Notes under the pieces: model-generated
Seen by the model: only the letters and a program-made list of their open reading frames with translations
Databases searched by the model: none
What the model was told of the DNA's origin: nothing
DNA from: Anaerolineae bacterium
Lineage (GTDB): Bacteria > Chloroflexota > Anaerolineae > J102
Assembly: GCA_027002405.1 (NCBI GenBank)
Contig: JALWZT010000292.1
Coordinates: 1-39,501, forward strand
Reading direction: 5' to 3'
DNA: 39,501 bases
Position numbers and translations under genes: made by a program
Part shown: one piece after another, positions 10,532-32,935 of the stretch
Position numbering within the stretch: position 1 is the first letter of the stretch
Layout of the letters: each line of letters starts with the position of its first letter

Positions 10532-11137
10532 TTATAAAGCATTGGCAGATACTGCCAAAACATAATAATGTCCCTGGTCGTCTGTTACGGGAGCTTGGTT
10601 GCGCAGGTAAAGTATAGCTTTAAGCCAAACATTAGGTCTTAAGATAAAATTTATCTCATCTTCTGAAAGTGAGTCAAAGTACCCCACCTCTCTTAACCGG
10701 GAAGATATACTCTTTCCCTTTGGACTACCAGCGCCAATAACACTAAGCTGGGTCACATAGTCTAGTCCTTCTTCTGGGCGCTTCTCCCCCACAATCCTAA
10801 GCTTACTGTACTTGCTTTCCACTCCATCTAAAAGTAAGTACTTGTCCTTTGAGTTAGGAATGTCTTCTAGCTTTATAAATCGGCCATTCACACTGGTAAC
10901 TACTTCTTTACTTCCATATCTCCTTTTCACCGGCCCTGGCGTTAAAAGGTAGTTTGCAAGTTTTGTATCTACTTCTTTTTCATCCTTAATTTTTAATTCT
11001 TCATTTTTAATTTTTATTTCTTCCCCCTTCTCCGCCGCCAGCCTCTTATCTTCGCTATTTTTATAAATAAACACCCCCACTAAAAAGACGCTTACCAGAA
11101 AAACCATCACCAGTACAGGCAGGATAAATCTTTTCAC
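10532..11137 (-). CDS. Membrane-anchored hypothetical protein, GTG start
   Basis: The 201-aa protein has one N-terminal transmembrane helix (FILPVLVMVFLVSVFLVGVF). A low-complexity charged stretch (KGEEIKIKNEELKIKDEKE) follows, encoded by an AT-rich tandem sequence. The C-terminal domain of about 140 residues is unrecognised; it contains EEGLDYVTQLSVIGAGSPKG and SLSEDEINFILRPNVWLKA. The start is GTG. A promoter-like pair lies so close that the transcript would begin at or next to the start codon (leaderless). It is followed after 6 bases by the cysteine-rich protein gene, so the two probably form an operon. Confidence 0.7.
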   Translation of the reverse strand: MKRFILPVLVMVFLVSVFLVGVFIYKNSEDKRLAAEKGEEIKIKNEELKIKDEKEVDTKLANYLLTPGPVKRRYGSKEVVTSVNGRFIKLEDIPNSKDKYLLLDGVESKYSKLRIVGEKRPEEGLDYVTQLSVIGAGSPKGKSISSRLREVGYFDSLSEDEINFILRPNVWLKAILYLRNQAPVTDDQGHYYVLAVSANAL

Positions 11138-11186: not shown

Positions 11187-13634
11187 CTAATTAGCGTTTC
11201 TGTACCGTTTTAAGTTATATTCAATGCCACCTTTTATTTCAGATAAGTCTTTTCTGGTAATATAACCTCTCCGCACCAGCTCATCCCCATGAGTGTTAAA
11301 CCACTCAAGTGCTTTAGTCATGGCATAATGACCAAAGTTCTTGTAAACAGTATCATCCCCTGGAACCATTACCCTGCCATCCTCTACTGATCTTCTGGTT
11401 CCATCAACTTCTCTTGACTCTGATATCAACAAATCTATCCAATACCTTATAGTGGGTTCTTCACTTTTCTTGCCGATAACAACATCAGTGTCACTTGATG
11501 ATACTCGAATATCATTCTTTTCTAACACAATAAACGACGTGCCCATACTGATAAACTTCGTTCCTTTTATACTCTCATCACGAATCTCATTTGGATCTGT
11601 TTCGTTTATGGCTTTATGTGCTTTGATTAGTGCTGCTAGATGTTCCTGACTTAAACCATACTCACCACCCGCAATCGCAATCTGGGCTGGATTACCTTCA
11701 GCATCGACTAAAATATAAATCCCTGCCGCTTTGGCCTCGTTTGCGTTAATCTCCTCTATGCTCTTTTTTTTATAAAGCTCCATCAACCCTCTATTTATCT
11801 CATCCATCGGCTTACCCTCTTTAAGCAACCTCACCGCCTCCGCCACGATCTCTGGGTCTAGGCCCAGTGGGTTTTCGTGGTAAGTGTCGGCATAACGCAC
11901 CTCGTTTAGCTTGTAATTAAGCACATAAGCCATCCGCTCAGCCGGATCACCGTAAACTCGATACTCATCCAGCTCCCTCCACTGCCCTGCTGCCTCGTCC
12001 CATTCATGGGTGACCGTCTGGTACTCGTCCCGGTTTACCAGCTTGTTAGTTTCCGACTCTAACGTTAACTGCTGACCGCGATACCGAGTAATAAACGGCG
12101 CTTGGATAAACTGCTTTTTAACTTGACCATCATTTTCCAACCCCAGCTTAACACCAAGGACCAACCTCTTGTCGTCAGGAAATGATATCGGGTTGCCAAA
12201 AATACGCTTGCCGGCTGGGTAGCTTCTGTCCCAAGGGTCAAGGAATTGGGGCAAGATCGCTATTACTTCTGGTTGGTTTGCTTGGTTTAGGCGAACGGTA
12301 AAGGTCATCCACTCTGGTGGCAGGGGTAAAAATCCACCACTTTGTGCCAGTCGCTCGGCAAACGTCTGCAAGTCTTCTGGATAATCGAGTCTTTTTGTGT
12401 AGTACTCATCGTAATCAAAATACTTTGCTTCCGTCCACTTGCTAAACACCTCTCTATTTTGCTCCTCAAGCGTTTGAAAGAGCTTGGCAGCATCTGAACT
12501 TTCTACGCTCTGTCCCTGCTCCTTCATGTACTTTAGCATCTCCCCAGTAAAAACAACCACTGCCCCGGTCTTTTCATCCCGCACTACCTTAAGCTCTCCC
12601 GCTTGAATCTTCTCTGTTATCTCTGTTTCATCCAAAAATGCACCATCAACCAGCGCATCCGCCACGGCATCTTTTATAACCGGCATGTTCTCTGCCGTGG
12701 GCGCAAGCTCGGTAAAGGCGCGGTAAACCTGCGCCTCCTTCCACCCCCCCGTCTCTTTGTCCTGCGTTAACGTCTTTTCCGTCCCGTCTGCCAGGGTGAC
12801 TTTTAAACTCTCGCCCTTTGCCTGTACTTCTGTGATTTCTTCTGGAAAAGTAAGGGTGTCAAACTGCTGTTTATCCCGGCTCCAGAGATAGAGCGTATCC
12901 GCACTTAAAAAGTAGGTAAGCGGTGCGTTTGCCGTCTCCAGCACCGTAAGCGCCTGCCACTGGTTTTTCTCATTTACCACCACCCGCGGCAGACCCTCCT
13001 TGTCAAACACCAGCCAACGACCATCCATAAACACAGGCCCAGAAAGGCCAAGCTCGGCCATCTGCGCCTCTTTAAGGCCTGCCTGCTTTTCAAGCGCCAG
13101 CCGCGCGCCGTCCAGAGAGAGCGTAAGCATGCCCTTTTCCTTTGTCTCCGGGTCGATGCCGATGGTCAGGACCGCGCCCTCTCCGTACACCTGGGCGGCA
13201 TCCTGACCGGAAAGGCGCAGACCCACCACCAGCCACTGGCCATCCCTCTCGGTCACCACCGGCTGGACTTGGGCGACGTCGGCGGGGGGGTGGGCGCCCG
13301 CGATCGCGTGCACGTCGGCCCAAAGCGCTTCGGCCTGCCGGGTGAGTTCCCGGGCCTCGGCCTCGGTCCATGTCCCACCCGCGGCGCCGGGCTTATCTGG
13401 CAGGACGAGGAGCGGCGTGGTTGGGCTTGTGGGCGAGGGAATAAACGCGGGCTCGCGCGTGGGCGAAGGCGCGAGGGGACGAGTGGGCGCAGTCGCGGGC
13501 GTGAGACCTTGAGAGTCTGTCGAGTTTTCAAGGTCTGAGGCGGGCGCGGGCGCACAGGCCGCGAGGAAGGGAAGGAACGAGCTCAGGATTAGGATTTGGA
13601 TTAGGATGAGGCGGGGGAGGGACGAGCGCGTCAT
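11187..13634 (-). CDS. Large lipoprotein of unknown function; signal peptide core encoded by a repeat
   Basis: From ATG 13634 the protein has 815 residues. The start is MTRSSLPR, the hydrophobic core LILIQILIL, and a lipobox ending LAAC (Cys 27), followed by a Thr/Pro/Ser linker to about residue 75. This predicts a lipid-anchored extracellular protein. The core LILIQILIL is encoded by AATCCT-type repeat units (13583-13607) that otherwise occur between genes. The mature part contains no domain I recognise; it includes WLVVGLRLSGQDAAQVYGEG and a KGTKFISMGTSFIVLEKND segment. Base composition changes along the gene: the first 500 bases are very GC-rich and the rest becomes AT-richer, like the two genes downstream. 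A TTG start at 13652 is possible but less likely. Confidence 0.75.
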   Translation of the reverse strand: MTRSSLPRLILIQILILSSFLPFLAACAPAPASDLENSTDSQGLTPATAPTRPLAPSPTREPAFIPSPTSPTTPLLVLPDKPGAAGGTWTEAEARELTRQAEALWADVHAIAGAHPPADVAQVQPVVTERDGQWLVVGLRLSGQDAAQVYGEGAVLTIGIDPETKEKGMLTLSLDGARLALEKQAGLKEAQMAELGLSGPVFMDGRWLVFDKEGLPRVVVNEKNQWQALTVLETANAPLTYFLSADTLYLWSRDKQQFDTLTFPEEITEVQAKGESLKVTLADGTEKTLTQDKETGGWKEAQVYRAFTELAPTAENMPVIKDAVADALVDGAFLDETEITEKIQAGELKVVRDEKTGAVVVFTGEMLKYMKEQGQSVESSDAAKLFQTLEEQNREVFSKWTEAKYFDYDEYYTKRLDYPEDLQTFAERLAQSGGFLPLPPEWMTFTVRLNQANQPEVIAILPQFLDPWDRSYPAGKRIFGNPISFPDDKRLVLGVKLGLENDGQVKKQFIQAPFITRYRGQQLTLESETNKLVNRDEYQTVTHEWDEAAGQWRELDEYRVYGDPAERMAYVLNYKLNEVRYADTYHENPLGLDPEIVAEAVRLLKEGKPMDEINRGLMELYKKKSIEEINANEAKAAGIYILVDAEGNPAQIAIAGGEYGLSQEHLAALIKAHKAINETDPNEIRDESIKGTKFISMGTSFIVLEKNDIRVSSSDTDVVIGKKSEEPTIRYWIDLLISESREVDGTRRSVEDGRVMVPGDDTVYKNFGHYAMTKALEWFNTHGDELVRRGYITRKDLSEIKGGIEYNLKRYRNAN
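13583..13607 (-). repeat. AATCCT repeat block inside a coding region
   Basis: On the minus strand the block reads CCTAATCC/AAATCC/TAATCC units, the same family as 4456-4479, 5745-5770, 23741-23765 and 23946-23968. It is translated as LILIQILIL in the lipoprotein gene. Confidence 0.8.
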
Positions 13635-13689
13635 CGCTACCAAAGGCTGCAAAAAGGGGTCTCACCGCAGAGACACGAGGGATACAGAG

Positions 13690-13800
13690 AAGTTGGCAAG
13701 TAGCAAGTGGCAGGTGGAGAGGACGCAGATTTGCGCAGATGCGACGCAGATTCCCACTGATTACTGATCACTGATAACTGATTACTCTATTTACGAAGTG
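13690..13800 (+). repeat. Mixed repeats: GCAAGTG, GCAGAT and TGATTAC blocks
   Basis: A GCAAGTGGCAGGTG block (13694-13717) is followed by a GACGCAGATTTGCGCAGAT block (13722-13752), a TGATTAC/TGATCAC heptamer block (13757-13787) and TATTTACGAAGTGG. The right end overlaps the 3' end of the Rpn-like gene. Confidence 0.85.
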
Positions 13801-13803
13801 GCT

Positions 13804-14721
13804 TCACCAACGATACAACTGACGCAGCTCTTCCGGGCTTTGCGCCGTGCGGATGGCTTTTTCCAGGATGCGCAGGATGCCCAGATCGGTGATGGCTTCA
13901 ATCTCGGGCATGAGCTTCAGCCCTTCCACCCCGAACTTCAACTCCAGGCCCAGGGCGATGGCTTCCAACACGCCCTCGCGATAGCCTTGCTCGCGGCCCT
14001 CTTCACGCCCACGCGTCAGGCCCTCCTGAAAACCTTGCTTGAAGCCTTCCTTCAAGCCCTTCTCCAGGCCCTCTTCCAGGCCTTCCTGCTTGATCAGTTC
14101 ATAACCAAAGGATTGTATCATCAGGTCCCTCCGTCGGTTCAAGAGGTGCCGGGCCAGGTCCGTGGATACCAGCCCTGCCATGAGAGTCATATTCGTCAAC
14201 ATATCCGCCTTGACTTCCTCCGCCAGATCACTGTCCACGATGGCCCGCTCCGCCTCCACAACTACATCCACGCCCCCTTGCATCAGCGGCGTCAGGGGCA
14301 TCAGACAGACCTTGTTCTGGCGGAGGACCTCGGCTGCATCCAGCTCATACAGCTTGACCAGGCGGAAGCGGTAGTCCACCTCCCGGTCCTGGTAGTGGTC
14401 CGTGGCCAAGGGGGAGGGCAGAAGGAGCATGACCACGGTGATGGCGTCCAGCTCCTCCCGCAGCACGTGCCGGGCCCGATACTCCAGCAGGCGTTGGGGC
14501 ATGTTCCGCTGCCAGTGGGTCTGGAATTCGATGAGGACGAGGAATTCTTCCCCATCCTCCTGCACGACGCGCAACAGGAAATCGCTGGTGCGCACGCTGG
14601 TGGTCTCCCGCGGGCGTTCCTCCATGAGGGTGCTGCTGGTCACGGAGATGCCCAGCATGTCGCGCAGGATGGCCGCGTGACAGTGGCGCAGGAGTTCTTT
14701 GAGAGCGACGTCGTACTGCAT
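13804..14721 (-). CDS. Rpn/PD-(D/E)XK nuclease-family transposase-like protein
   Basis: The 305-aa protein starts QYDVALKELLRHCHAAIL. It has a PD-(D/E)XK-type core with D47 (TSDFLLRV) and E65-x-Q67 (FLVLIEFQTH), the variant found in Rpn (RpnA-RpnE) recombination-promoting nucleases and related transposase-associated proteins. Residues of about 215-260 are a Gly-Glu/Lys-Gly/Arg-Glu-Gly repeat (EGLEEGLEKGLKEGFKQGF), typical for the family. These proteins are often numerous and variable in Chloroflexota and cyanobacteria. An extended -10 promoter (TGCTATAAT) lies 34 bases upstream of the ATG. Whether it is active in DNA cleavage cannot be read directly, but the core residues are kept. Confidence 0.8.
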   Translation of the reverse strand: MQYDVALKELLRHCHAAILRDMLGISVTSSTLMEERPRETTSVRTSDFLLRVVQEDGEEFLVLIEFQTHWQRNMPQRLLEYRARHVLREELDAITVVMLLLPSPLATDHYQDREVDYRFRLVKLYELDAAEVLRQNKVCLMPLTPLMQGGVDVVVEAERAIVDSDLAEEVKADMLTNMTLMAGLVSTDLARHLLNRRRDLMIQSFGYELIKQEGLEEGLEKGLKEGFKQGFQEGLTRGREEGREQGYREGVLEAIALGLELKFGVEGLKLMPEIEAITDLGILRILEKAIRTAQSPEELRQLYRW

Positions 14722-31852: not shown

Positions 31853-32935
31853 GCAATAGCTCACCGCATAACGACGAAAATGGGGACGCAGATTGACGCA
31901 GATGCGACGCAGATTTCCACAGATGTTCGTCATGCTGAGCGACCGAAGGGAGCGAAGCCTGCCCTGAGGAATCGAAGGGCATCTAGCGAGCGAAGCGAGC
32001 GCCATGCCGTGTTTTTTGCGCTTCGCTAGATTCCTCGGTCGCTTCGCTCCCTCGGAATGACGTTTCGTTGTCGCCTTTTTCGTGGCCCTATTTTTTGGCG
32101 TTGTCTAACCGACCGAAGTGGCGTCTGCCACACCCGCCCGCCCGGCGATGAAGTCGCCGGGCTATGAAACGGCGCCGGATAATTCCGGCTAGCCCCGCAA
32201 CTGATTACTGATAACTGATCACTGATTACTCTAATTTACGGAACAGTCGTCATGAGCGATGGCTCACCGCATAACGATGAAAATAGGGCGCAAGTGGCAG
32301 GTGGCAAGTGGCAGGTGGCAGGTGGTCACGGTGTGCGTCTCAGACATTTGGCGTGGTTTAGCCGAGCGAAGTGGCGTCCACCACGCCCGCCCGGCGATGA
32401 AGTGATGCTGGTGGCAAACCTCAAGCCGGTTGCTGGGCGCCTTGGCCCCGCCGACTCGAAGTCGGGGCTGGGGGCCGGCCCCCACCTTGGTTCCTCCCCC
32501 GGTGGGGGAGGACATGAGGAAGGTAGATTGCCTGGGCTGCCTGTCTGCCTGCGCAGAGAGGCCCAAGCGGGCGAGGATATGTCCCCGTCGGGCCAACGCT
32601 GGCCAGACCTTGAAGGGTCTCCCAGACCTTCAAGGTCTTTGACACCCGCCCGGCGATGAAGTCGCCGGGCTATGAAACGGCGCCGGATGAATTCGGCCGG
32701 CACCGCAGGGGCGCTGTTTTTCGGCTCGGAGCTAAACCTCCGAGCTACAGATGCGAAGCCCTGCGGGCTGGCCATGGGAGCCCCGAAGGGGCTTTGCACC
32801 CGTAGCCCGAGGGTTCAGCCTCGGGCGCGGAGGAACCGCGCCCGATGAATCCCCCTCCACAGGGGCGCTGTTTCTAGCCTCGGCGTTACTGAATACTGAA
32901 TACTGAACACTGATTACTGAATTGCGCCGGGCAGT
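31853..32935. repeat. Repeat cluster of 1.1 kb without genes
   Basis: The stretch holds scaffold copies (31856-31882 and 32251-32286), GCAGAT blocks (31885-31918), TGATTAC heptamers (32202-32232 and 32885-32920), and a GCAAGTGGCAGGTG block (32291-32325). A palindromic element (31926-32066) carries GGGAGCGAAGC and GCTTCGCTCCC arms. The stem GCCCGGCGA-TGAAG-TCGCCGGGC occurs twice (32140-32162 and 32648-32670). CCTTGGTTCCTCCCCC/GGGGGAGGA (about 32483-32513) resembles the insert in copy 1 at 8001-8070. I see no convincing gene. Confidence 0.8.
32724..32843. repeat. Run of five perfect stem-loops in 120 bp
   Basis: Stems in order: GCTCGGAG/CTCCGAGC (32724-32745), AGCCC/GGGCT (32757-32769), AGCCCC/GGGGCT (32779-32793), GCCCGAGG/CCTCGGGC (32805-32826) and GGGCGCGG/CCGCGCCC (32823-32843). 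The last two share four bases and so are mutually exclusive at their edge. It could be a structured RNA or a packed group of REP-like palindromes. Confidence 0.75.

Follow-up and report, generated by a model that had tools for sequence, protein, structure and literature searches.

Dispersed DNA repeats can be translated when they come to lie within genes. Here, we describe a tandem hexamer repeat, AATCCT, that is scattered through the genome of an Anaerolineae bacterium, mostly between genes, and that also forms the hydrophobic core of a predicted lipoprotein signal peptide. We consider it likely that this dispersed repeat enters coding DNA and persists where the encoded peptide is tolerated, the gene in the window being one case. 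The window is the whole stretch of DNA that was analyzed, namely 39,501 nucleotides of contig JALWZT010000292.1.

The gene (P0001) lies at positions 11187..13634 on the minus strand and, according to its open reading frame and translation, encodes 815 amino acids, to which no Pfam family could be assigned. No homologue turned up in 99 further genomes of this class or in a pattern scan of genome_contigs. The translation starts at the ATG at 13632-13634 with an n-region, MTRSSLPR, in which two Arg provide the positive charge typical of lipoproteins, followed, as in LILIQILILSSFLPFLAAC, by a hydrophobic core (holding one Gln) and a lipobox of the form [LVI][ASTVI][GAS]C. By translation and motif reading, the lipoprotein signal peptide MTRSSLPRLILIQILILSSFLPFLAAC is predicted at 13554..13634 (minus strand), with the lipobox Cys codon at 13554-13556. 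The protein is thus a predicted lipoprotein, and its start, its signal peptide, and lipidation and cleavage at the Cys are all predicted.

The core of this signal peptide is the repeat. Four AATCCT-type units, one of them AATCCA, occupy 13584..13610 on the minus strand (TRF: 13585-13611, period 6, 4.5 copies, score 40), and their codons, CTC ATC CTA ATC CAA ATC CTA ATC CTG, are read as LILIQILIL; the following ten residues, SSFLPFLAAC, end in the lipobox. The original prediction, that a repeat otherwise seen between genes is read here as LILIQILIL ahead of LAAC, was therefore borne out by the sequence, TRF and the translation. With several AATCCT units in tandem, the array belongs to the dispersed repeat of the genus, and the window has five occurrences of (AATCCT)2, where dinucleotide shuffles predict 0.00. 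The change of composition downstream that had also been noted was confirmed, as GC is about 0.69-0.71 at 13150-13600 vs 0.36-0.56 across the remainder of the lipoprotein gene.

Genome-wide, exact matches to (AATCCT)3 number 303 in the own genome (4.32 Mb, 363 contigs; overlapping registers counted), 37 in G007, two in G002, one in G004, and none in the other 76 genomes of the class that were searched. A 1.24 Mb sample of the own genome, non-random and in part picked for contigs rich in repeats, holds 196 arrays, 183 of them intergenic, in agreement with the description of the repeat as otherwise lying between genes. Gene calling relied on a simple script that scores codons, both start sites and signal peptides being predicted, and the genomes are MAGs whose contigs end at repeats (contamination of the own genome, 4.2%); the loci L045, L134, and L186 (probable wrong starts) and L127 and L175 (weak calls) were set aside. 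A heptamer array lies within 220 bases upstream of 103 of the 196 arrays, and downstream of four. Many arrays are borne by dispersed composite elements with conserved flanks, of which there are at least two types. The first consists of an ACTGATT array and ends in ..GGCCTGACAATCCTC-[AATCCT]n-GATCCTATTTACGGAACAG; the second, ACGTTTCACG, ends in ..CTCAACGT-GGCCTGACGATC-[AATCCT]n-GATCCGAATCCTATTTACAAAGCAG. Composite elements were seen at L045, L073, L127, and many other loci of the own genome, probably with more than 100 copies in all, and the other tandem families of this genome are mainly intergenic too. The window array is solitary: it is flanked by CTCGTCCCTCCCCCGC and GAGCTCGTTCC, and the composite flanks (GGCCTGACAATCCTC.. 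on one side and ..ATTTACGGAACAG or ..ATTTACAAAGCAG on the other) are absent.

Where arrays lie within genes, the reading frame goes together with the place in the protein. Coding DNA can accommodate the repeat, as a unit of six bases is divisible by three and four of the six frames contain no stop. In-gene arrays are read in the Ile-Leu frame in signal peptides or in the Asn-Pro frame in linkers, or else lie at 3' ends. Among clear in-gene arrays that were not found through the lipobox pattern, all nine in the Ile-Leu frame are N-terminal signal peptides and all six in the Asn-Pro frame are internal or C-terminal (Fisher P = 1/5005, calculated by hand). (Asn-Pro)n linkers or tails were observed in long proteins of the own genome (L075, L135) and of G007 (L207, L214, L216, L218), and at L057 (6945-6974) and L073 (3591-3608) arrays over the 3' ends of genes supply the last residues and the stop (..SQSQS*). 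No internal array in an antisense frame was found in the clearly called genes of the own sample, where antisense overlap is confined to the 3' ends of two genes and to one weakly called gene. Clear signal-peptide cases in the own genome, among the 196 arrays, are the window gene and L166, a multihaem cytochrome-like gene whose predicted signal peptide, MQGTLLPILILILILLPSIAHAQ, looks like a signal peptidase I type; the incomplete genes C47 and C332, at contig ends, come in addition.

A search of relatives for signal peptides coded by the hexamer, as suggested in the original prediction, yielded about ten distinct, unrelated lipoproteins in G007, a MAG of the same genus (Anaerolineae bacterium T2_metabat2_scaf2bin.134; ZnuA locus on JALXCB010000078.1). 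On translation, their Ile-Leu cores are in the ATC-CTN frame before a lipobox, and their n-regions are unrelated. The set comprises ZnuA, SBP_bac_6, SBP_bac_11, NMT1, HlyD_3, two Exo_endo_phos proteins, a PD40 propeller, and two unnamed proteins (Pfam names for those scanned). The pattern of two hexamer units plus a lipobox gives 18 matches in G007 vs 0-3 in each of 20 other genomes.

Could Ile- and Leu-rich hydrophobic cores simply happen to resemble the hexamer? Partial resemblance is expected, since 74% of Ile codons in the own genome are ATC and CTN codons are common, and the matches to the two-unit pattern in G006 and G011 may be such coincidences. But the arrays draw on CTA, the least used codon for Leu, which makes up 2.1% of the codons for this residue in the own genome and 1.5% in the stretches of G007. 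When codons were drawn from 17 lipoprotein-like signal peptides of the own genome, a signal peptide with two ATC-CTA pairs in succession had a simulated P of 5e-7, and three pairs never arose in 2 million draws. Furthermore, G007 is alone among 396 genomes of the class in having (ATCCTN)3 with a lipobox, the other 395 showing no three-unit case even when any third base is allowed. Chance and codon preference fail to explain the array, and we regard coincidence as extremely improbable.

Genus-mate orthologues of three G007 proteins, ZnuA (75-84% identity), HlyD (64-80%), and EEP (56-71%), have ordinary signal peptides with mixed codons; for example, the ZnuA signal peptide is MSSKHTPILILILILTLAAC in G007 vs MTRKSLLLFLFLILAFTFSAC in G004. 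Orthologues lacking the repeat thus have different signal peptides, a point that the original prediction had proposed to examine, and the same peptide written in diverse codons, which the original prediction had named as evidence against itself, was not seen in these three. It follows that the array was acquired in the lineage leading to G007, by proteins that already underwent export, where it either took the place of a hydrophobic core or grew within it. The suggestion that the repeat created a secretion signal was accordingly upheld in part: the core is the genome's own dispersed hexamer and recurs in about ten unrelated lipoproteins, but the orthologues already possess complete signal peptides, so the repeat rewrites existing signal peptides rather than demonstrably creating one de novo. 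This replacement reading is drawn from the three conserved G007 lipoproteins, as the window gene is without a detected orthologue. As a separate observation, the heptamer AATCAGT is read as SNQYSVIS in the n-region, before the core, of HlyD-type lipoproteins in G007 (L246), G001 (L249), and G006 (L251).

Each signal-peptide array might instead have arisen by itself, an ATC-CTN pair expanding through local slippage without any relation to the repeat between genes. The flanks of the intergenic composites are missing around most signal-peptide arrays, and short precursors occur in orthologues, for instance ATC CTC ATT CTA in EEP of G002, both of which fit such an origin. Local slippage should, however, mostly amplify CTG or CTC units, whereas the unit seen is AATCCT of the intergenic family, and the signal-peptide arrays are found in genomes that bear this family. 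In addition, the ZnuA, DUF, HlyD, and L166 arrays sit 26-39 bases past a heptamer array, near the spacing of one composite type. We therefore judge an origin by slippage alone to be unlikely.

For the preferred reading, entry of the dispersed repeat into coding DNA, the following course is proposed. A genome bearing AATCCT arrays, mostly between genes, would seed or convert coding sites from its dispersed copies. Signal-peptide cores would readily receive the repeat: with ATC the main codon for Ile and CTN frequent for Leu, the codons present already match about five of the six unit positions. Once there, an array would grow or shrink by slippage, one dipeptide per step and without a frameshift, presumably neutrally with regard to export, and coding copies would persist only where the peptide is tolerated, namely as an (Ile-Leu)n signal-peptide core, as an (Asn-Pro)n linker, or at gene ends. 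In the window, the array would have come to lie within a 5' module that is duplicated in the own genome. As to the route, the data fit insertion, conversion, and independent expansion alike.

Tolerance may not be the whole explanation in G007. Its 21 exact (AATCCT)3 arrays comprise seven in signal peptides, four in Asn-Pro linkers or tails, and ten between genes, and a signal-peptide share of 7/21 against ten intergenic looks above what simple tolerance would give, so that positive retention may be involved. That selection keeps these arrays as a frame-preserving tuning knob in G007 strikes us as quite improbable. If it were true, slippage would lengthen or shorten the core by single Ile-Leu pairs, adjusting the export of many G007 lipoproteins at once.

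The 5' module mentioned above, CTTTTTGCAG..CTTTGGTAGCG-ATGACGCG-CTCGTCC-hexamer array (13584..13665, minus strand), is common to the window and the loci C47, C332, and C212 of the own genome. It is preceded by a mosaic of short tandem arrays at 13662..13786, seen in the sequence and by TRF and made up of CAGAGACACGAGG-type, TGGCAAG, GACGCAGATT, and ACTGATT units. The C47 copy (MTRSSISYPILILIFLLAAC) and the C332 copy (MTRPSLPRPIPILILILILL) are cut by contig ends; the C212 copy reads MTRPSIPHPIPILILLLLL and then a stop, without a gene behind it, and its neighbours are a glycogen-phosphorylase-like gene and a sigma-factor gene, as named from reading their translations. Array length differs by one or two whole units among the four copies. 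The start of the module was also considered as a widespread element and rejected, as its 19-mer matches (at most two mismatches) elsewhere in the class occur singly and resemble chance hits. The gene adjoining the lipoprotein gene, at 13804-14721 on the minus strand, has a Yae1_N match and a weak match to PDDEXK_2, a transposase-type nuclease. On the other side, a TTAATTT array at 10979-11023, within the gene at 10532-11137 (minus strand), is read as IKIKNEELKIKDEKE directly past a transmembrane segment; it was rejected as a second dispersed repeat, being missing from the common repeat families tallied.

A second dispersed sequence accompanies two copies of the module. Just past the lipobox, the coding sequence holds a 33-bp palindrome at 13504..13536, AGACCTTGA...TCAAGGTCT, which reads ..SDLENSTDSQGLTP.. 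in the protein. This palindrome is dispersed, mostly 34 bp long and intergenic: eight of its ten copies in the 1.24 Mb are clearly between genes, and the remaining two lie in the window lipoprotein gene and in the C47 copy, at the same place just past the lipobox. The C47 palindrome was scored as intergenic only because the contig end cuts its gene. Both coding palindromes are 33 bp, a length that keeps the frame; a 34-bp copy, AGACCTTGAAGG..CCTTCAAGGTCT, is found at 32605-32638 of the window.

These copies invite the idea of a leader that moves whole, with upstream mosaic, start codon, repeat core, and lipobox, so that new genes would gain both promoter and secretion signal. Four module copies with different neighbours in the own genome, one of them (C212) without a gene behind it, and a dispersed palindrome in the same place in two of them would be consistent with this. 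Yet C47 and the window protein match across residues 1-59 and could be simple paralogues, the genes at C47 and C332 run off their contigs, and C212 may be a decayed gene. Moreover, no module copy was seen before an unrelated known protein, and the n-regions of the G007 cases are unrelated. Such a mobile leader therefore appears quite improbable.

On the reading that the dispersed repeat enters coding DNA where its peptide is tolerated, one DNA repeat would be read, depending on frame and place, as different useful or harmless peptides, a membrane-crossing core in one case and a linker in another. Dated before-and-after pairs, i.e., repeat-free orthologues and their array-bearing counterparts at 56-84% identity, would indicate how freely signal-peptide cores can be replaced naturally, and repeat turnover could rewrite the export signals of many genes within a single lineage.

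In the open-licence literature, no published case was found in which signal-peptide cores are formed by a dispersed DNA repeat. Three known systems each share one aspect with AATCCT, and none found joins a dispersed intergenic tandem repeat to many signal-peptide cores. The Rickettsia palindromic elements (RPE; Ogata 2000, 2002; reviewed in PMC10969869) are dispersed repeats of about 150 bp, found between and within genes, that encode a conserved peptide. Like them, AATCCT is dispersed between and within genes and is translated in frame inside unrelated proteins. Unlike them, it is a 6-bp tandem unit without a conserved flanking peptide, its location in the protein depends on the frame, and it does not qualify as an RPE; the palindrome near the window array, in turn, is only 33 bp long. 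Leucine repeats in eukaryotic signal peptides (PMC3124433) are likewise repeats at the amino-acid level that are over-represented in the hydrophobic segment of the signal peptide, but they consist of a single residue and have no tie to a dispersed intergenic DNA repeat. Finally, intergenic short tandem repeats of 6-9 bp, such as GGGAATC in Xanthomonas and GGGGATT in Nostoc (PMC4692102), resemble AATCCT in forming hundreds of short, length-variable arrays, mainly between genes. Whereas those heptamers shift the frame, AATCCT, with its length a multiple of three and four stop-free frames of six, enters genes in frame.
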